Shown here piece after piece: positions 1-60,939 of a DNA stretch of 64,000 nt. Under the pieces are notes generated by a model, which worked only from the letters and a program-made list of their open reading frames with translations, was not told where the DNA came from and searched no databases. Position 1 is the stretch's first letter. Each line of letters opens with the position of its first letter. Where the stretch lies: NCBI RefSeq assembly GCF_964204865.1, contig NC_135262.1, positions 16,917,650 to 16,981,649 of the forward strand, written 5' to 3'. A program made the position numbers and the translations under genes. The DNA is from Styela clava. Taxonomy: Eukaryota > Chordata > Ascidiacea > Stolidobranchia > Styelidae.

Positions 1-1114
1 CTACTGCCGAGCAAACGTGATTTTCACGATCTGTAACTGAAGATGGCGCATAGTCTTCATCTGAGAATACGTCGCTGTTGAAAAGCATAATACCAGTGCT
101 GTGGAAGCCAGCTAGGATATTACGCGGTACAAATGCGCAGATGTGAGCTTCGTTCACCAAATGAGCTATATCGTATATAGACACAGTCTTACCCGGATTG
201 GACCTCATCCAATTATCCATCGCGCGCGCGTAGGCTCTTTTGTATGGTCCATAAACAGTCTTGTCTAAAGGCTGGATGGAGTTTGTGGGACGTGTGTGAA
301 GGGATGGTCAACACCACAACTCCGTTCGCCTTTGCCTTGTCAACAGCTGTCAGTGAAACGTGGGCCTCGTGATTGTCTAAGATGAGCAATACCTTTCTGT
401 CGGGTATACAGTGTGTATGCTCAATGAAGTGATCGAGATAGTTGACAAACGTTTCCTCGTTAATCCAACCTGATCTGGTGGCCGCACCGTCAGATCCCAG
501 TGGCGCACCTCGTATGAAATAATTACGATAATTGACACGGGGAAATATCATGTAGGGCGGAATATATCCACCAGCAGCGTTGATCGCATTGACTACGGTT
601 ACCAGCTCACCTCTTTCACCTGATGTGACAGAACCAATCTGCTTAACCCCTTTTTCCGTAACAATGCTCTCAGGCTTTTGCACCGTATGGCACCCTGTTT
701 CGTCGATGTTATATACGTCTTGTGCCTCGAATTTGTGTTGGTCCATTACTTTGGCAAGGTTTTTGTAGAACTGTCCCACTGTATGGCGAATAAACGCCGT
801 TGCTCTGGCTAATGAAGTAGCTTCTGGACTTCGAATTGCAAGGTTATTGCGTGCTTTCAATCCAAGCCAAAACCCTTGACCAGCTTTTTTGCTGATTTTC
901 TGGCACATCAACACCGTTTCTTTCTGCAAACTCATACGCCAAACATCGGCATTTATCTTTGGATAGGCCATGGTAGTTTGCTGCAAGTGTTTTGATGTGA
1001 CTAGCTAGTTCAGCTTCCATTTCAGGACTGAATATCATATTCTTGAGCTTGCAATTCTTGTATCCGCTTGTACCAAGCGGGTCATGTTTTTGTTTATCCA
1101 TGTATCGCTCACCT
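1..1114 (-). pseudogene. Tigger/pogo-type transposase, C-terminal part (broken)
   Basis: Reads on the minus strand as the middle and C-terminal part of a Tigger/pogo (Tc1/mariner superfamily, DDE_1) transposase. Visible motifs are YNIDETGC (first catalytic Asp) and LLILDNHEAH (second Asp); the third Asp (PLDKTVYGP) is present only after a one-base frame change near 275-285. A second frame change lies near 895, between the GLSKDKCR... part and the KISKKAGQGFW... part. It aligns by eye with the transposase at 53939-55921. The N-terminal part lies at 6832-6980, separated by an inserted Harbinger element. The C-terminus runs off the left window edge. With two frameshifts and an insertion it is dead. 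High confidence in the family. Confidence 0.88.
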
Positions 1115-1302: not shown

Positions 1303-2757
1303 ATGCCACTTTCGAAAAGGAAAAGATTGGCAATCGCCCTTTATTTGGCAAACAATACGGAGCAAAAGCAAAGGGAACATTGGGTTCATCCCATATTAAA
1401 AAGAAGGAAAGAGCTTGGTAAGTTCAAATCATCGCCCTATGAAATTGCGTGGTCTTTCCTCAAAATACTAATATAAGATTAATTAATCATAGGCTATCTT
1501 ATACTGTTTTCTTCATCTACCTGTGTATTGAACAGACGGTAGAGCTTGAAGTTGAATAAACATTTATCTTTCATTTAATATTACTTTCTACGCAGGTGAG
1601 TACCATAGACTTGTCCAAGAAATGAGACTTGAAAGAACGGTTGCATTTCGTAACCAATACCGCCTGGACCCTGGTATGTTTGATGACCTGAGGAGTCTAG
1701 TGCCAGTGGCTCCTTACATAACTAAAACCACGACTAATTTCCGAGAACCTATATCTCCTGAAGAGAGGCTTGGAATAACATTAAGGTGAGCAATTACTGT
1801 ATATTCAAACCATGTAGCAAAATGTATGTGGAAGAAAATATTCAAATTATAACACATCCACATAGAACTATTAAAAACAAAATAAACATAACATCAAATA
1901 AAAGTGCACATATATCATATTTCAGATTTTTAGCAACAGGGGATTCTTATACCACAATAGCAGATTCATATAGGACATCGAAATCAACAGTTTCAGGAAT
2001 AGTTACAGAAACTTGTGAGGCAATTTGGACATCACTCAAAAAAGAATATTTAAGCCCGCCAACAGTTACAAAATGGAAGCAAATCGCTGAAGAGTATGAG
2101 AAAAAGTGGAATTTCCCACATTGCATAGGGAGCATAGATGGGAAACATATACAAATTCAAGCACCGGTGAATTCAGGGTCCCTTTATTACAATTACAAGC
2201 ACACCTTCAGCATTGTGCTAATGGCCCTTGTCGACGCCAATTATAATTTTGTTTTTGTCGATGTGGGAGCTTACGGAAAGCAGAGTGATGGAAGTGTTTT
2301 CTCCCACTCTGCTCTCGGTAAGCTCATGAATGAAGGGGCCCTGAATTTGCCGGATGAAACAACGCTTACTAACAGCTCAAAAAAGGCTCCCTATGTGATA
2401 GTGGGGGATGAAGCCTTCCCACTACAGAAGCACCTGATGAGACCATACCCGGGGCGAAATTTGCCAATTGATGAAAAAGTTTTCAACTACAGGCTATCCA
2501 GGGCAAGGCGAGTAGTAGAAAATGCATTTGGTATAATGAGTGCGAAGTGGAGAGTTTTTAGGAGGCCCATGGGTGTGTCGCCACAAAACGCAGAGTTGGT
2601 TGTGAAGGCAGCATGTTGTTTGCATAATTATGTAAGACGCCATACACTGATAGATGCAGGTGAAGTGGATAGGGAAGACCTGGAGGGAAACATAACAAGA
2701 GGAAGTTGGCGGGTACAACAGTTTTTTGCCCCTGCAAAGGCAAGGTCGCAGAAATAG
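1303..2757 (+). CDS. HARBI1-like PIF/Harbinger transposase, 3 exons
   Basis: Predicted join 1303-1417, 1596-1785, 1926-2757; introns are GTAAGT...CAG and GTGAGC...CAG and phases agree, giving 378 aa. Exon 1 gives a basic N-terminus (MPLSKRKRLAIALYL), exon 2 the region with RLDPGMFDDLRSL, exon 3 the DDE nuclease. Motifs: GSIDGKHI (first Asp), GAYGKQSDG (second Asp), VVENAFGIMSAKWR (Glu), plus IVGDEAFPL and LHNYVR, typical of HARBI1/DDE_4. No stop or frameshift is visible, so the enzyme could be intact. It would cut and paste the enclosing element, in this superfamily together with the accessory MADF/Myb protein. The start ATG at 1303 is the first in frame. The unspliced frame from 1786 contains intron sequence and is not the real protein. 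Confidence 0.9.
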
Positions 2758-38282: not shown

Positions 38283-40103
38283 TTACAAAAACTTTTCTTC
38301 AATTGCATCAATGAAATTCTGTTTTTTCCCTGTTACATTAATGCCATTGTTTTTACAAAATTCTTTAAGGACCGATACAGTAAGTTTCGCAAGTTTACCT
38401 GTTGATGCAAGTTCTTTTATGTCAGCTATGTTCATCTGCTTGGCATTGGTACCGCCATTTGCTGCTTCCGTCTTTCGTTTTGTAGCAGTTGGCCTTGGTT
38501 TACTGACTTTTGCAGTTGGATCATAACCAGAAGGATAAACCTGTTCCTTAAATTGTGCAATCAAGTCTCCTGCTTTTTTGGTTATCCTATCAAAGTTTGG
38601 TTGTGTCAGATCATCTATTTCATCTGGTGCATCTTTTTCTAATGCCATTGCTTCAAGATTACGATAATGTGTTTGTAAAGCTGGATTGTCAAAATTCATA
38701 GGATGGTATGTGAACTTTAGTTTCCTGATAAAAGTTCCAGCAGTTTTCACTGCCTCCTCATCTGGTTCTTTAGTCTCTTTCAATTCAATATTTCTCATGT
38801 CTTCTGAAAAAGGCAAGAAGATAACATAAAACCCTGGAGATTGTTTTTGCTCTCCCGTAGTTTCATCAATAACTTCTTGTTGTGGAAGTAAAGCAACACA
38901 TCTAGGTGCGGTGTTGGAACGTGCTGATAAACTGCATATGGGAACAACATCTCTTTCAATACATTTTATTAAAAGAGCAGAAAACAGTGTTGTACTGCCT
39001 TTAACAGCTTTTTCATTAGGATATATAAATTGAGCTGCTTTTACATGTAACCATGGCTTCACTGCTTTGGCTGTTGGCTTGAATCCTAGAAGTTTCATCC
39101 CTGTACCAAAGAATTTTCTCATATCTGCTACTTCGTCATTTTCAAACATAATGTCCCGATTCCCCCACTTTTGTGATAATTTGATATCACCAGGCAGCAG
39201 AATATCCCCTGTGTCTTTCTCAACAAAGTTAGTTTTTGCAAATGCTTCTTCATTTGACGTGGAATCTATATTGACATTACTACTCTTTGTTGCCCGCCTT
39301 GCTGCAGTATAAACACCAACATACATTTCCATCCCATCAAACAATTGAAATGAAATAGTACCCATCGCTCTTTGCTTGGAGCATTTTCTGAGCAGAAAAT
39401 CATATAAATTTGTGATACCATCAACTGGATTTTGTATAATAGAAACATCCGCATCAACATCAGATATAATATCTTTGTAAAATTTCTCATAGTCGAAACT
39501 CCTGTTAAATGAAAGGACTTGGATTGTTATATCTTGTTCCATGAGGTCCTTGGCCTTCGTTCTAGCTCGCAAATGTGCATTTCTATCACCATGATGTGGA
39601 TCATCTTCCCATGTGAACAAAATCAATGTCTTCGAAGACAGACTGACTGTTGTTCGACTAAATATTGATGAACAACACCAAAGTAGATCACTGATTTGAT
39701 GATCATTGCATTGTCCATATTTCAATTTGAAATCAGCTTCTGTTGAATCTTGTAATGTTTGAAGCTCTTCAATCCTAGCAGCAGATGATGAATCCAAATC
39801 TTGTACAACATAAATATTCTTGAAATCGGACGGATTTTTAGTCTCTTCTGTACCAAAGAAAACAAGAGCTTGTAGGTCACGTTCACTGCAAATAATCTTG
39901 TTTCTCAGCATATCTTTCGCTGCCTCACATATTTTATTAAATGGGCAACTTTCATCATCATCATTTGTGAGTTGGAACATTTGCTCACAACAATCGACTG
40001 CAATCATGACGCTATCCCGACCGGAAAATGAGGCCCAAGTTCCTTGATCATCTTGGCCTTCCTCCGTCACACCCAAATCATCATAAAAATTAAAGTCAGC
40101 CAT
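38283..40103 (-). CDS. XRCC6: Ku70, ATP-dependent DNA helicase 2 subunit 1
   Basis: Intronless frame, 606 aa from ATG at 40103 (human Ku70 is 609). An acidic N-terminus (MADFNFYDDLGVTEEGQDDQ) precedes the vWA-like alpha/beta domain (about residues 30-240; SVMIAVDCCEQMF, TLILFTWEDDPH). The DNA-encircling beta-barrel follows (about 245-440; GVYTAARRATK, MKLLGFKPTAKAVKPWLHVK). Then come the C-terminal arm (FTYHPMNFDNPALQTHYRNLEAMALEK) and a terminal SAP domain (about 560-606; LTVSVLKEFCKNNGINVTGK). Ku70 pairs with Ku80 to bind DNA ends, recruits DNA-PKcs in non-homologous end joining and acts at telomeres, in the nucleus. An upstream in-frame TTG is not used. No damage is visible. Confidence 0.97.
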   Translation of the reverse strand: MADFNFYDDLGVTEEGQDDQGTWASFSGRDSVMIAVDCCEQMFQLTNDDDESCPFNKICEAAKDMLRNKIICSERDLQALVFFGTEETKNPSDFKNIYVVQDLDSSSAARIEELQTLQDSTEADFKLKYGQCNDHQISDLLWCCSSIFSRTTVSLSSKTLILFTWEDDPHHGDRNAHLRARTKAKDLMEQDITIQVLSFNRSFDYEKFYKDIISDVDADVSIIQNPVDGITNLYDFLLRKCSKQRAMGTISFQLFDGMEMYVGVYTAARRATKSSNVNIDSTSNEEAFAKTNFVEKDTGDILLPGDIKLSQKWGNRDIMFENDEVADMRKFFGTGMKLLGFKPTAKAVKPWLHVKAAQFIYPNEKAVKGSTTLFSALLIKCIERDVVPICSLSARSNTAPRCVALLPQQEVIDETTGEQKQSPGFYVIFLPFSEDMRNIELKETKEPDEEAVKTAGTFIRKLKFTYHPMNFDNPALQTHYRNLEAMALEKDAPDEIDDLTQPNFDRITKKAGDLIAQFKEQVYPSGYDPTAKVSKPRPTATKRKTEAANGGTNAKQMNIADIKELASTGKLAKLTVSVLKEFCKNNGINVTGKKQNFIDAIEEKFL

Positions 40104-41164
40104 ATGCAAAAGATCTGGCTTGTGCTTAGCTATTTATCTTTTTCAGAAAGAGAGAGAAGGAAGCATTAGAACATGCAATGGCATAAGTACACATAGAAAG
40201 GAACAATTACAATTCCTAATCAATCATAGGTCACAACAGAACACCAAAATAATATGCTCTATTCCTAGTTTACCAGAAATAAATCTCATGGGAATAAAAT
40301 GAAAACCAAGGTTTTAACAGATACATGCAAATTGAAATGAATTATATTGCCAAATGTAAAAAGTATATTATTCGTGCTTTTTCAGTTAAAATTTTTTAAA
40401 TTAGTTGCTAAAACAAATTCTTGCAAGGTTTACACAACACAGTAAATTGAGGCCCTAGAAAAAAATTTAGAAAACAACCAGACCACCCATCAAAAAACCA
40501 AAATACATTTTGTTATTAACACCATCAAAACATACGTTTACATACAATAAAATTTAAATAGGAGCAGTAGATGTCTGAAAGATAGGAAATAGTGGTTAAG
40601 AGGTGAAAATTTATCACCGAAATCACATTATTGAAAACTAAAATATCGAGCCGAAGAGAGTCAGTTTGTGTTTTCTGATGCCAAAGCAAGTATAAAATAA
40701 CCAATACCAGATATTATTATTCAATAGCTTACATTGGTGGTATTGCTAGCTAACTGTCGATACTCCTGAAGTATGCGTACCAAGATGGCAGACACCGGAA
40801 CGTAGTATGTGTAACACGTTAGGGTTAGGCCATAATTTCATTCCAATTTTTCTTATTTTAGTTCTCTTAAGAGTTCAGAGACTAGTCAAGTGACTCCCGT
40901 AGTATTTGTACCTAAAATTATAGCCTAACCGTAACCGGGTACACATACTACGTTCAGGTGTCTGCCTTCTTGGTACGCATACTTCAGGAGCGCCGCCATC
41001 TTGGTTCGCATACTTCAGGAGCCCAACTGTTATAATGAGTTTGTGATATAACAGACCAATTTAAAGCAATAAACAAGAATTTTTAATAATCTAACAATGT
41101 TTATAATGGTGATAAATTTTCACCTGGAATTCAGTTATTTTTTAAATAAAATGAGCAGTATGTA
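40104..41164. other. Ku70 upstream region with an inverted-repeat MITE
   Basis: Contains the promoter side of Ku70 and the 3' side of ZC3H15 (both minus strand). The only recognised structure is the family C element at 40763-41022. Confidence 0.5.
40763..41022. mobile_element. Inverted-repeat MITE, family C, copy 1
   Basis: Left arm CTCCTGAAGTATGCGTACCA plus AGATGGCAGACACC; the right arm is its reverse complement (GGTGTCTGCCTTCTTGGTAC...). The right terminus is duplicated: ATACTTCAGGAGC occurs at about 40979 and again at about 41010. Internal GGTTAGGCCATAATTT is mirrored by AAATTATAGCCTAACC. Related copies: 44131-44340 and a decayed one near 60462-60640. Target duplication not resolved. Confidence 0.75.
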
Positions 41165-50778: not shown

Positions 50779-51237
50779 TCAGGCGCTGAATGAGGGGCAG
50801 ATCAGGGTCGGTATCTTGCAGTGCTGCTTGACATAGTCGTCCACAGACCCTAAAATGATTCTTCCGATAATTCCTAAACCCCTAGACCCCATAATGATTA
50901 AATTCACGTCGGATTTATTTGCCATGGATACAATTGTCTCGCCAACGCCGTTTTTATCATCGTGAATTACAAATTTGTGGCTTATTCCGAACTCCAAGCA
51001 CATTGTTTCGTACTTCTTCTTTAATTCATCGTGTTTGGTCTTCCGATCTGACAAATACTTCTCAGCTTTGCCAGGAATATATCCAACACCTCCCGCATGA
51101 ACGTAAGCCGGGAGTCTGATTGGATCAGCTACGTGTAGTAAAACGACTTCATCTCCGGCTCTATGCAGTAGTCTCGTGTAATAGTTCACAACGAAATCGT
51201 CATTTACCCCGTTTTTTATGCATAAAAGTACTCTCAT
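50779..51237 (-). CDS. Universal stress protein (UspA-domain) family
   Basis: Single-exon frame, 152 aa from ATG at 51237. One UspA domain spans almost the whole protein: N-terminal strand MRVLLCIKNGVNDDFVVNYY, VVLLHVADP, then the C-terminal nucleotide loop G117-x2-G120-x9-G130-S131 (GSRGLGIIGRIILGS), which is the ATP-binding type, and VKQHCKIPTLIC. No signal peptide or extra domain. Usp proteins bind ATP and are linked to stress tolerance in bacteria and plants; animal members occur in many invertebrates and are generally absent from vertebrates. Native base composition and isolation among animal repeats argue against bacterial contamination. Its role here is unknown. Confidence 0.92.
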   Translation of the reverse strand: MRVLLCIKNGVNDDFVVNYYTRLLHRAGDEVVLLHVADPIRLPAYVHAGGVGYIPGKAEKYLSDRKTKHDELKKKYETMCLEFGISHKFVIHDDKNGVGETIVSMANKSDVNLIIMGSRGLGIIGRIILGSVDDYVKQHCKIPTLICPSFSA

Positions 51238-51613
51238 TTTACTCTTTTGTCAATTTTTATAACGAACTGCACACCTAAGTTCTTCAGCTGACTACAGTTG
51301 ATACTGACTATCGCTACAACCGACAGGCCTATTTCAATCTTTCGCGAGGGTATGCGATTCGTGATTGTGAAACGAGACGGTCCGTGATTGATATACGCAG
51401 CCGGCTCTAACCGGAGCAAAACTGGTGGGAACCAGCAATTGATTTCGAAAAATGATGTTTTGACGAGGCCAATAACATGATTGCTCATCACGCATATCAT
51501 GAAAATAGGCCAGTTTGATACTATAGGAAACTCAAGTAGACACAGAGTTACTACAGGTCATAATAGTTTGAAACGACATTTATATGACAAAGACAGTAAT
51601 ATATGATCTATTT
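51238..51613. promoter_or_regulatory. Upstream region of the USP gene
   Basis: Contains the presumed promoter. No TATA box or stress-element cluster stands out. Confidence 0.35.
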
Positions 51614-53378: not shown

Positions 53379-56354
53379 GGGGAGAGGCAGGTTAGTTGAT
53401 GCTGTAGTTTAGATGATACAGCGCTTCTCACGGCCGTGCAATGCACTTCAAGAAACTGATGCGCCACCTGGTGTTTGGCTAGAATATGTTCTTCCTTTCT
53501 GTTAGTCGTCTGACGATGTTGGTTGCAGCACGTTTAAAATTTTCGAAAAAAATCAATTTTTAAGATCTGGAGTGAAAACGTCAAATCAAGGTAAGTTGAT
53601 TATTTTTTCAGGCATTATAAATGAGCGATGCAAGCGAGTATTTCCTTGCAGTAGTGTATGATATCGCTTACATAACAGCCTACATGTTTCTGGATACTGA
53701 TTTGAATTCTTCCCACTACGGCCCTTTTTTTCAAAATGGCCACAGGTTGACTAGTTGATACAATAGTGGTTCCATTAGTTGATACGTGTATCGACTTACC
53801 CTGCTATTTATTCCATGTATTTTTTTAGCATATTTTTCAGCAAATATATTTTCAGACTTTCTTTTAACCGGGTTTTATGGTTTGCGGCATTGTCAATATT
53901 TTTACGCTGCCAATATTGTTTTCAACGTATTTTAGGTGATGCCTCAGTTCTATAGAAGAAAAACAAACAGAGCCATAGGAACTCCCCCGGATGTGATGTC
54001 GAGGGCGGCTGACGATGTTGTTCGCGGGCGATCATTGGGGAGTGTAGCTGAAGCATTTGGCATCGATAAAATGACTTTGTCTCGTTTTATAGTCAAGCGC
54101 AAAAATAATCCTAACGCAATTACAGGTTACGCTGCTGTTGCACATTATATTATTCCTCAGCAAATGGAAGAAGATCTGGGAAATCATGTCAAACGATTGG
54201 CCGACATGTTTTTTGGACTCTCTCTTGAACAGTGTTGTAAACTAGCTTATGAATTTGCATTTCAAAACCAGTTGTATATGCCAGTGTCTTGGAAAATCAA
54301 CAAAAAAGCGGGAAAAACTTGGTGGCTAGAGTTCAAAAAACGACAAAATCTTTCCATACGGACTCCAGAGGCAACTTCACTCGGAAGGGCGACTGCATTT
54401 AATCGTCACACGGTTGGTGAATTTTTCGACAACTTAGCACAGGTCATGGATGTGGACGATTTTCACCCTGAAGATATTTACAATCTCGATGAAACCGGGT
54501 GCACCACTGTTCAAACCCCATCTGATATTGTTACAGCCAAGGGTAAAAACAAGTGGGTGCAGCTACGTCTGCTGAGCGTGGTGAACTGGTTACGGTAGTC
54601 TACACATGGTGCCTCTGGTAATGTGCTTCCACCTATGTTTATATTTCCGCGCGTAAACTTTCACAACCACTTTATCATTGAAGGGCCACCGGGCTGCATT
54701 GGACAAGCAACAAAGTCTGGCTGGATTAATGAAGAACTTTTTCTTGTTTATCTAGAACATCTGGTGCGCCAGACTCGTTGTACTCCCGAAAGAAAAATTC
54801 TTTTGATTTTGGATAACCACGAGTCTCATATTTCTTTACGTGCTGTTGAGATGGCAAGATCCAATGGAGTAGTTATGCTTACTTTACCACCTCACACATC
54901 TCATCGATTGCAACCGCTTGATAAAACGGTGTATGGTCCTTTCAAAGCCAGTTATAACAGAGCGATGGAGAGTTGGCTACGTAGTCATGCTGGAAAAACT
55001 GTTACAATATATGATGTTCCTGGCATTGTAAAAGAGGCTCAAATGTCAGCAATGACATCGAGGAATATTCTATCTGGATTTCAAAGCACTGGTATATACC
55101 CTTCCAATCGCGATATTTTTACTGATACAGATTTTGCAGCTGCAACTTTGACGGACCGAGAAGTCGTTGATCGTGATGAACCAGGACGGTCCTCAAAATG
55201 CACGGTTCCACTGACCCCAGGCTGTAGTAATGAAAATCTTTGCACTCATAAACCGAGGGTTAATGAATCAGCATTTCAGTTACAGAAAACGGGCAACCCA
55301 GATCCCCAGATCTTGCTCATCGTACGTATCGCCAAGCGAGATTCAAAAAATCCCAAAAGCTCCACAAAGAAAGACCAAGCGCTCCCGAAAAAAGGAAAGA
55401 CAAAGATTTTAACTTCCACGCCTGTATTAAAAGAGATTTCCCTAGAGAATGAAAAAAGAAAGAAAAACAAGAAATGCAGTTCGTGAAAAAAACTTTTCGC
55501 TACAAAAAATAGGAAAGTTCGCCCCCACAATACTAGCAATAGTTCAGAAAAGGAGTGTGCTGTTGTTAGATATGATGACACGACTGATGAAGATGAATTA
55601 TCTGCAGAAGAAATCATGGGAGGTGATTACGTGGTTGTCAAAGTAGACGGGAGATCTAGAAATGTACATTACATCGCTCGTATAGATTTGCTAGAAGATA
55701 ATGAGTATGAGGGAGTTTTTCTAAAGAAAGTTTCTAGTCGAGTTTCTGTCGAAGCAGAGCACACTGGTTTTGTATTTGTTCCAAATGAAGATGATGGGGC
55801 TTCATTCTCGCATGAGGGCATAATATGCAGACTACCTCAGCCAACAATTCCTGCAGGATCAGCTCGGAGATGTGTTCGACTTAAATTTGATTGCGATTTG
55901 AGTAAATGGAATGTAAATTAGAGGTTGTCTACCACCATCCAGCAAACCATTTCGTTAAACGAGTTATTTGTATTTTTTTATTTATTTTTGCCGCCGTTCC
56001 TGGTGAAACTTTCTCTCTCGTTCTTTTGAAACAAGTTATAAGTGATATTTGTGCCTCGTTCCATTTCATTTTTAAAGTAATTGCCTGCTTTTAAAAACTT
56101 TATGCAGAGTGTATCAACAAAACTACCACTGCGCATCAAGTATCCTTACCAGGCAGGATATTTGATACGTTTGACAAGAAAACTTTAGCGACTGTAAGCG
56201 CTAAGTTAGGAAATGACTGAGAGCCCCATTTTGTGGTCATGTGTGAGGAACCTATAAATGAATAAATAGGACAAACCAGAACGGCGATTATTCGAACGGT
56301 ATTTTTTATGGATCAGTAAAACTAAATTATGTATCAACTTACCTGCCTCTCCCC
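53379..56354 (+). mobile_element. Tigger/pogo DNA transposon, complete ends, 2.98 kb
   Basis: Terminal repeats GGGGAGAGGCAGGTTAGTTG (left) and the inverted right end CAACTTACCTGCCTCTCCCC, flanked by TA at 53377-53378 and 56355-56356. Short GTTGATAC motifs recur near both ends (53754-53795, 56106-56170). Carries one transposase gene (53939-55921), disrupted by frameshifts. TA duplication and transposase type agree on the Tc1/mariner, pogo/Tigger group. Confidence 0.92.
53939..55921 (+). pseudogene. Tigger/pogo transposase, frameshifted
   Basis: Starts at ATG 53939 after an acceptor-like TATTTTAG. N-terminal CENP-B/psq-type HTH (SLGSVAEAFGIDKMTLSRF, about residues 32-50), then a second DNA-binding region, then DDE_1 with YNLDETGC, LILDNHESH and LQPLDKTVYGPFK (all three Asp present). 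Frame changes near 54545 (an A run) and 54609 break the region before the LPPMFIFPRVNF strand; a further shift near 55486-55616 separates the Lys/Ser-rich linker from a C-terminal module (MGGDYVVVKVDGRSRNVHYI...). The whole reading frame is recognisable, so decay is recent. The 1-1114 plus 6832-6980 copy is a related but distinct Tigger. Confidence 0.9.
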
Positions 56355-58608: not shown

Positions 58609-60147
58609 ATGAGATTATTTTTATTTGCGTTTATGTCTTATGGCACGTTTGCGACAGTTTTGGGATATCAGGTGTTCGTTAGGACTCTCACAGGTAAAAC
58701 CATCACTTTAGAAGTGGATGGAACTGACACAATAGAATCTTTGAAACAGCAGATTTTGGAGAAAGAAGGTACTCCAGTTCACCAACAAAGATTTATATAT
58801 GCGGGTAAACAGCTTGAGGATGGAAGAACATTGGACGATTATGGAATTCAAAACGGAGCAATCTTGCATTTAATCCTACGATTATCCGGAACGATACAGG
58901 TATAGCAACTAACCCCCAAATGTACCCCATTTCATGTTGAAATCATCAAAACAAAGTTAATTTTCCCCAAAATTCGAAAACTTTCGTAGCAAACAAATTA
59001 CACCAGTTTAAGAAACATAACATGTTCCACCCAGTCATTATCAAATTAAAATTTTTTATTCTCAAAACCTTTGGCACTGAGTGAAATAATTATATCCAAG
59101 TTCCCATCCGTACGATGTACATAATTACCCTTATTGAGATAATAGCCAATTTGGTGTAGTTTTGTAGTTACATAAGAACTAATTGGCTACACAGGTACAG
59201 TCGGTGGGTCCTTTTTGTGACCCGTAGATCAGTGGTTCGTCATACCTGCCCTAGGCTTTGCTATTTGTGAGGCCCCTCTTCAACAATGACGACATAAAAA
59301 TTGTGGCCTCATAATAGGCTTTTTTTTTTGGGGGGGGGGGGGGGGGGTTGTTATGTATATATATATATGTCGTCATAAACTAAATTTGAAATTTCGAGAA
59401 ATGCGAAATTTTATGACAAGATATTACGCTAATCATCAGAGTATATTTGATACAAAGTCGAATTTAAAAACACTGAGAAAAATTAGGGCTATAAAAAAAA
59501 ATATCATGTCACCAGAAAGCCAATACCCGTTTAATGATCGCGGACAGAGGGGGGCCCAATTACTGTTAAATAAAACATCAGTAATTTATAAAAATATCAT
59601 TTCATTTTTTGAAATAATCGGGTAAAAATGATATCAACCTAATTACAAAATTAAGCAAATACCAGTTTTTAACGTTTCACACCGGCTTTATTCTGGAACA
59701 ATCTTTTACAATTCAGAAACGACTTAAAACTGAATTAAGTTCAAAGTTGAATGTCGAGGACCCTCATGCTTCAGCCTCCCTTGCCTCCTGGTAAATACGC
59801 CTCTGCTATTCATAGAATACCCAACTTAAACCAGGGTTCAATTTCTCATATGAATATTCACTCTTGTCGAGTTCCTTTTATTCCGGAAATAATATAAAAA
59901 TTTAAGCAGTGTTATATTTTCACAGATCACGGTGGACTACTTTACTAAATCGACGTTCCAACTTATTGTTACACCATCAGACACAATTGCAGAATTGAAG
60001 ACTGAAATTTTGAACCAAGAAGGAATATCTACCGTGAACCACATATTAGTTTTTGATGATACCGTTTTGAATGATGCAGAGACCATAAATGATGCTGGCA
60101 TCGTAAATGGTTCAGTGCTCAAGCTATTTGTGAGAGTGTTGTGCTAA
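58609..60147 (+). CDS. Predicted secreted tandem ubiquitin-like protein, 2 exons
   Basis: Join 58609-58899 and 59926-60147 (GTATAG...CACAG, phase 0), 170 aa. Residues 1-19 ([19 protein letters not shown]) look like a signal peptide with a V-L-G cleavage site; cleavage would leave [17 protein letters not shown], aligned with ubiquitin residue 1. Domain 1 (20-94) matches ubiquitin at about 50 of 76 positions by hand. It keeps Leu8, Ile44, His68, Lys11, Lys27, Lys33 and Lys48, but has Arg6, Gln29, Asn63, Ser74 and Thr76, so the Gly-Gly end is lost. Domain 2 (about 98-170, exon 2) is divergent ([36 protein letters not shown]) and ends in Cys without Gly-Gly. It therefore probably cannot be conjugated like ubiquitin. 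The arrangement recalls ISG15, but with a secretory leader. Function unknown. Confidence 0.82.
58900..59925. other. Intron of the ubiquitin-like gene
   Basis: The 1,026-bp intron holds a poly-T/poly-G run of about 17 G near 59331-59347 followed by a TATATA run. A 90-codon open frame (59353-59625) lacks features. No clear terminal repeats. Confidence 0.5.
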
Positions 60148-60939
60148 AACTATTATGTATAATTGTGTCAGAAGGAATTTCACATGAATACTGTTTATCG
60201 TAAAATTTATTAAGCATGGAATATAAGCTATGGAATGAATAATTTTTCGGGTGGAACTGTAATTCTTGGCATGGAGATATATAAAGTATATATAGTTTTA
60301 AATCAACTTGCAGCGTCGCCAAGGACGTAAATCACAAAATATATTTACGTTTTCTAGAAACATCGATCAAAACATTCATTATTCAAATTAGAAATGATAA
60401 TTAACCTTATGATTTCTGCAAAACAAAGAATTCTAATAAACTCCAATATTAATTTAATTCAACGGCGCTCCAGAAGTGTGTGTACCAATACGGAGGTAAC
60501 TAATTTTTTTCGCCTACTTTACATCAAGTTGTGTAATGGGACCGAAACCTATGGGCAGGGGTATATTCACTTGGCTAACACAGACAGTGCCCGAACTCGT
60601 AATCGAACTAAAATAAGGAAAATCGCCTCAATACTAAACCCAGACTGTGTCGATTCCGCGTTTAAAAGGATGATGAATAGTTTATTAATTGATTTCGTCT
60701 CGCCGGAAAGATAGGTTTAATAAATTTTGAGAATGTATCTTCCAATATCATTCTTTACTACTATAACATCTTTCGCGAGACTCGGAAAACCCACACTACT
60801 GAATCGCATCGAAAACTATCAAGAACTGTAGGGATCCTGGGTAAGCTTAGATATTATTTGCAGGATTTTACTCTAAGAACCGTTTACTTCTTGGGGAGTC
60901 TGGGGGGCGTTTTCGCCCACTTCGACTTATAACTAGTGC
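60148..60939. other. 3' flank of the ubiquitin-like gene; decayed family C copy
   Basis: No clear AATAAA was fixed for the upstream gene. 60462-60640 (GGCGCTCCAGAAGTGTGTGT ... CTAAAATAAGGAAAATCGCC) is a decayed relative of the family C MITE. Open frames here derive from that repeat. Confidence 0.5.

Follow-up and report, generated by a model that had tools for sequence, protein, structure and literature searches.

Ubiquitin has long posed a puzzle outside cells, where it is active although it carries no signal for secretion. One locus in the ascidian Styela clava, within a window of 64,000 nucleotides (the whole stretch of DNA analysed here, part of a contig of 20 Mb in an assembly of 377 Mb), raises the question whether an animal gene may encode a ubiquitin mimic that carries a leader and lacks a conjugation tail, and what such a protein would do. 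We find that the locus is, very probably, a nuclear tunicate gene, with no second copy found, which encodes a fused pair of non-conjugatable ubiquitin-like domains. The gene that a first-pass annotation had described from the letters is confirmed by our analysis, and its interpretation as a secreted, ISG15-like protein of an unfamiliar family is partly supported.

The gene is formed by two stretches of the plus strand, 58609-58899 and 59926-60147, which join in frame at phase 0 across a GT..AG intron to give 170 amino acids; both the exon coordinates and the junction had been placed correctly in the first-pass annotation. Exon 1 (58609-58899) holds a candidate signal peptide of 19 codons (58609-58665), which was assessed by translation, null tests, cleavage sites, hydropathy and start context, then a first ubiquitin-like domain, D1, of 76 codons with the tail LRLSGT (58666-58893), which was assessed by Pfam, a residue table, pN/pS and a structural model, and finally the first two codons of a second domain, D2. 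Exon 2 (59926-60147), covered by Pfam and a fold model, carries D2 from its residue 3 and ends in Cys and a TAA stop. A possible polyadenylation signal, AATAAA, lies on the same strand at 60435-60440. The splice junction reads CAG/GTATAG ... TTTTCACAG/ATC, and the 76-residue register of polyubiquitin is kept exactly across it: polyubiquitin has RLRGG-MQI where the joined exons have RLSGT-IQI, and the intron follows Q2 of the second unit. That the register continues unbroken is the strongest sign in the sequence that a true exon-exon joint lies, or once lay, at this junction.

Pfam recognizes the ubiquitin family (PF00240, cut-off 25.4 bits) in both exons, with 101.7 bits (E 1.9e-29) for exon 1 and 51.0 bits (E 1.2e-13) for exon 2. 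D1 is identical to ubiquitin at 50 of 76 residues, in agreement with the earlier hand count of about two-thirds. It retains L8, R42, I44, K48, H68 and R72, with V70 changed to I, so that the Ile44/His68 surface and Lys48 are in place as first described, and K6, K29 and K63 are replaced. Its tail is Ser-Gly-Thr and not a conjugation tail (R74 to S, G75 kept, G76 to T). D2 had been called very divergent and Cys-terminated, and the residue table bears this out: identity to ubiquitin is 28/75, R42, K48 and H68 are lost, and the C-terminus runs R72-V73-L74-C75 and then stop, the Cys at ubiquitin position 75 being the sole Cys of the protein. The two domains are identical to each other at 26 of 75 residues.

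AlphaFold2 gave a confident ubiquitin fold for exon 1, with the leader at low confidence (56 and 57 for its first two blocks), and a model of D2 from its residue 3 with a mean pLDDT of 83. Compared with solved ubiquitins, the D2 model reached a query TM of 0.88-0.96 in 49 of the 50 listed among 1,738 matches, the exception being 5j8p_B at 0.30. Ubiquitin relatives were present in its alignment, and the model therefore confirms the fold rather than discovers it. Two ubiquitin folds in tandem, as first proposed, are thus supported by Pfam and by models of both domains. Two fused folds, as in ISG15 and FAT10, are what the locus encodes, given the predicted splice. The domain junction is GT/I and not the cleavable GG/M of a polyubiquitin precursor, and neither domain ends in the Gly-Gly of type I conjugated ubiquitin-like modifiers (SGT in D1, VLC in D2).

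Selection has left its mark on both domains. In comparisons with all eight polyubiquitin units of the genome, pN is 0.23-0.24 and pS 0.76-0.91 for D1, and pN is 0.43-0.44 and pS 0.70-0.81 for D2. Synonymous sites have reached or nearly reached saturation, protein sites have not, and the frames have gained no stop, from which it follows that D1 and D2 have long been under selection; judged from these codon comparisons, this is purifying selection on both. When the bases of the coding sequence were shuffled, none of 20,000 shuffles kept an open reading frame. Searches of the genome with exon 1 turned up no second copy (all 46 candidates were scored in one search, 40 of 234 in another). The first-pass annotation had named, as grounds against itself, that the exons might be part of a larger polyubiquitin gene; a six-frame search of the window, covering 1,583 segments of at least 25 amino acids, found no third ubiquitin domain.

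The intron (58900-59925, plus strand, phase 0) contains pieces of at least three interspersed repeats. Its bases 1-246 (58900-59145) are a fragment of an element beginning (G)TATAGCAACTAACCCCC; a 46-bp piece of a second interspersed repeat abuts it (59146-59191), and a stretch at 59632-59809 is related to a third, with 73-85% identity. The best 40 of 504 candidate copies of the first element elsewhere in the genome were scored and are all 91-94% identical, and one fetched copy (L006) is only 70% identical. Seven same-strand pairs, ~1.7-1.95 kb apart on six contigs, occur among these 40, spaced as terminal direct repeats would be. In all six fetched copies the element runs on past base 246 (one copy has three bases missing there), the point at which the second repeat begins in the intron instead. 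An introner, in which one element makes up the whole intron, was considered and rejected, as the copies continue beyond base 246 and none of the best 40 repeat matches to its remaining part extends as far as the acceptor. The sequence shared with the element starts at the G of GTATAG in five of the six fetched copies and at the T in one, and the donor GT therefore lies within one base of the transposon edge. The element supplies or borders the splice donor.

Such a coincidence of intron start and element edge, together with the 91-94% identity of the scored copies, could mean that the gene was changed when a transposon inserted at the edge of the exon. The donor, now made with or next to the element, would then be poor or dead, and the product would be a leader and a single ubiquitin-like domain of 98 residues in all, ending SGTIQV, or else the gene would be newly dying. 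The unspliced frame does close at GTA TAG, with a stop after one more residue, and the donor CAG/GTATAG is off consensus at +4 to +6. By splice-site weights, however, this donor is among the best 6% of GT sites in the window and the acceptor among the best 9% of its AG sites, and exon 2 is fully open, keeps the ubiquitin register and has the low pN relative to pS given above. Damage by insertion is unlikely, and we infer from the sequence that splicing across the intron probably takes place today.

Because Tyr replaces Met1 at residue 1 of D1, translation must start upstream of this domain. The reading frame is open back to 58588 and has in-frame ATGs at 58609 (ggaacaATGA, A at -3) and at 58633 (T at -3). 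The apparent signal peptide of the first-pass annotation stands to the extent that a 19-codon leader is present in the sequence behind the ATG at 58609, but its hydrophobicity is modest and secretion is only probable. Its best 9-residue Kyte-Doolittle mean is 1.96, which is equalled by 16% of the 940 open 19-codon ATG stretches in the window; on a second hydrophobicity scale (dG) the same window stretches equal it in 7% of cases. The leaders of three bacterial ubiquitins, described below, have best 9-residue means of 3.48, 2.76 and 1.96. The -3,-1 rule permits cleavage before Tyr20 (VLG/YQ). The earlier statement that the mature protein begins exactly where ubiquitin starts is therefore one of three options, as cuts after residues 12 and 15 are equally permitted. 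An NGS N-glycosylation sequon at residue 158 is uninformative, since 64% of 5,000 shuffles also carry one.

The leader could be an artefact, its 19 codons being the T-rich end of an upstream intron, or initiation could occur at the ATG at 58633; the product would then be a cytosolic type-II tandem ubiquitin-like adaptor. Consistent with this, 26 of the 57 leader bases are T, the hydrophobicity is no more than moderate, and a candidate acceptor, ggatatcag/GTGTTC, would cut D1 between residues 2 and 3, which is where the real intron cuts D2. By splice-site weights, however, this acceptor ranks low, in the top 19% of AG sites in the window, and a CAG 14 bases before it scores slightly better; the ATG at 58633 has its T at -3, and the window holds no further ubiquitin exon to be spliced on. 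Chance occurrence of such a leader was estimated from 18,015 AG sites, counted on both strands in the window and in fetched stretches of the same genome of at least 8 kb, excluding one that overlaps the window (L048). Any in-frame ATG 15-35 codons upstream was found at 8% of these sites and an equally good leader at 0.2%, and a signal-peptide-like in-frame leader lay upstream of 0.2-0.4% of the better acceptors, with the gene's own site counted among them. We give an artefactual leader roughly one chance in three, and the short leader probably directs the protein to the secretory route, as far as can be predicted from its residues and context.

The closest relatives of the gene were sought in its own genome and beyond. 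Eight open frames in the same genome carry three ubiquitin-like domains by profile. Six of them share a contig with the polyubiquitin gene and come as near to it as ~6 kb, and the other two lie on a different contig; this count excludes split or decayed members in L039, L040, L042 and L051. A tandem cluster of such genes near the polyubiquitin gene spans G000:C5:20750501-20799099 (L039-L043), the two on the other contig lie at C14:7076425-7085299 (L044-L045), and a decayed one is found at C1:14460647. The third domain ends RGG in all eight frames, with a short tail behind it in three, and a leader was seen by eye in none. Three domains and RGG ends are a layout that suggests an ISG15/FAT10-like expansion. 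D1 is 68% identical to ubiquitin over 74 aligned residues and 31-47% identical to three of the four third domains with which it was aligned (BLAST found no match for the remaining one); being nearer to plain ubiquitin, it does not have its closest kin among the three-domain frames. A tree of 20 rows, drawn without ISG15, had no well-supported (starred) branch. The description of the gene as ISG15-like thus fits the two-domain layout, but descent from ISG15 is not supported, as D1 is nearest to plain ubiquitin and no branch of this tree is starred.

Searches of prokaryote genomes with short peptide patterns yielded five relatives from 332 stretches, BfUbb of Bacteroides fragilis not being among the five. 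In L053, from a Hyphomonadaceae MAG (RLRGG), and L055, from Flavobacterium notoginsengisoli (tail TPPCN), a leader recognized by eye directly precedes the ubiquitin; in L056 a hydrophobic stretch is found, but further upstream, the ubiquitin of L057 is embedded in a large protein, and L054 has no leader that we could see. The sole match in plasmid records, L059 on a Ruminococcus albus plasmid, likewise has a leader by eye directly before its ubiquitin. These three sequences suggest that putatively secreted bacterial ubiquitins are spread more widely than B. fragilis. They resemble the Styela gene in that their ubiquitins are 58-64% identical to D1 and directly follow a leader, and L055 also has a Cys near its end. 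They differ in being bacterial and in having one ubiquitin domain (L059 continues into another region), and L053 and L055 have no supported link to D1 in the tree, with L059 outside it. No relative of D1 was found among 17 stretches retrieved from viral contigs with short peptide patterns, and a search of phage records for D1 relatives gave no match. Horizontal transfer from bacteria or a virus is not supported, in view of these empty viral and phage scans, the closeness of D1 to the genome's own ubiquitin and the lack of a starred tree branch.

Published proteins show where the gene is new and where it is not. BfUbb is described as having a signal sequence, no GG and a C-terminal Cys; it inhibits ubiquitination in HeLa extract, and with human E1 it formed a covalent complex under non-reducing conditions, whose loss on reduction is stated as data not shown (PMC3352274). 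It is 63% identical to human ubiquitin, and its authors propose inter-kingdom transfer, the nearest relative being an entomopoxvirus ubiquitin. It is also described as inhibiting other, sensitive B. fragilis strains (PMC5705921). Going by this description, BfUbb and the window gene share the absence of Gly-Gly and a C-terminal Cys and, if the probable leader of the window gene is cut before Tyr20, also a signal sequence and a mature start aligned with ubiquitin residue 1; in the window gene, the Cys near position 76 that marks a BfUbb-like E1 trap is found at position 75 of D2. In contrast, BfUbb is a single-domain bacterial protein, whereas the window gene has two domains and an intron, lies on an animal chromosome and is nearest to the plain ubiquitin of its own genome. 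Cyst nematodes have secreted ubiquitin extension proteins, described as a signal sequence, one ubiquitin and a short extension that is cleaved off (PMC5705921). These too are animal genes, and a signal sequence precedes their ubiquitin as the probable leader does here, but the Styela protein has a diverged second ubiquitin fold in place of a cleaved extension, and the tail of its first domain lacks Gly-Gly. The first-pass remark that this was not a family it knew is therefore too strong, given the leader-bearing, GG-less ubiquitins in these two reports.

ISG15 and FAT10 share with the window protein the fusion of two ubiquitin folds, and ISG15 is also extracellular. Modifiers of this type end in Gly-Gly for conjugation and are not known to have a classical signal peptide. 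They differ in this from the window protein, which has no GG and a likely leader. None of the matches listed in the open-access literature, judged by titles and the starts of abstracts, concerned a tunicate protein that is secreted and has ubiquitin-like domains in tandem. The two-domain animal protein is a new variant on the published theme of secreted single ubiquitins.

As to function, the best explanation that we can offer is a non-conjugatable decoy of ubiquitin handling outside the cell, to which we give a probability of roughly one in three. To enzymes or receptors that bind ubiquitin, D1 would show a nearly intact ubiquitin face, but without a free Gly-Gly it could not be passed on; D2 might act as a spacer or a second contact. 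The single C-terminal Cys of D2 could form a disulphide with the active-site Cys of an enzyme, or with a second copy to give a dimer. A disulphide with the active-site Cys of E1 has been proposed from the complex of BfUbb with human E1 (PMC3352274). With R42, K48 and H68 gone, D2 is likely a poor E1 ligand, and this predicted weakness counts against a direct E1 trap.

A different role for a secreted product would be that of an extracellular immune effector or signal, either antimicrobial, as oyster ubiquitin is, or acting in the manner of a cytokine, as free ISG15 does. Ubiquitin-derived antimicrobials are described from Crassostrea gigas and Ruditapes philippinarum (PMC11767717), extracellular ISG15 and ubiquitin are described as acting on immune cells (PMC10892293), and the inhibition of sensitive strains by BfUbb points the same way. 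The mature Styela protein, however, is acidic (pI 4.7, charge -8). Most antimicrobial peptides are unlike an acidic protein, and we consider an immune role improbable.

For the decoy, targets outside the cell exist in at least one ascidian, since Halocynthia sperm are described as releasing a ubiquitinating enzyme complex, ubiquitin, ATP and the proteasome at fertilisation, where the sperm receptor of the egg coat is ubiquitinated (PMC9265791, PMC10341865). The same reports present ascidian fertilisation as a case of ubiquitination taking place in sea water, and the enzymes responsible are as yet little understood. A bolder form of the proposal is that tunicates evolved a dedicated, secreted, non-conjugatable di-ubiquitin mimic, which would compete for or trap the ubiquitin-proteasome machinery of fertilisation through its intact ubiquitin face and terminal Cys, as an animal counterpart of BfUbb. 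This is a long shot, and a role in fertilisation would rest on work in another ascidian species, Halocynthia. If it were true, a leader-bearing, non-conjugatable mimic encoded by a tunicate gene would open extracellular ubiquitin to genetic study, and the design of BfUbb, with its leader, ubiquitin face, missing GG and terminal Cys, would have arisen in an animal too.

Ten other open frames of the window were also scanned, and a Pfam family was recognized in seven of them: ankyrin repeats, Ku with SAP, DFRP_C with a CCCH finger, universal stress protein and three DDE transposase pieces. The transposase pieces lie at 216-1004 (minus strand), 1762-2754 (plus strand) and 54599-55483 (plus strand) and represent at least two families (DDE_1, DDE_Tnp_4). 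At 50782-51249 on the minus strand, a frame of 156 amino acids encodes a universal stress protein (Usp, PF00582). An uninterrupted frame of 616 amino acids on the minus strand at 38286-40133 contains Ku_N, Ku, Ku_C and SAP domains; since Ku domains occur here together with SAP, it is apparently Ku70, seemingly in one exon. As a marker of the taxon, mitochondrial COX1 gave no match in the assembly. Tunicate origin is supported by an exon for glycosyl hydrolase 6 elsewhere in the genome, which scores 35.4 bits (cut-off 27; none of 14 prokaryote controls matched) and lies behind stretches that look membrane-spanning by eye, a layout that we take to be that of tunicate cellulose synthase.
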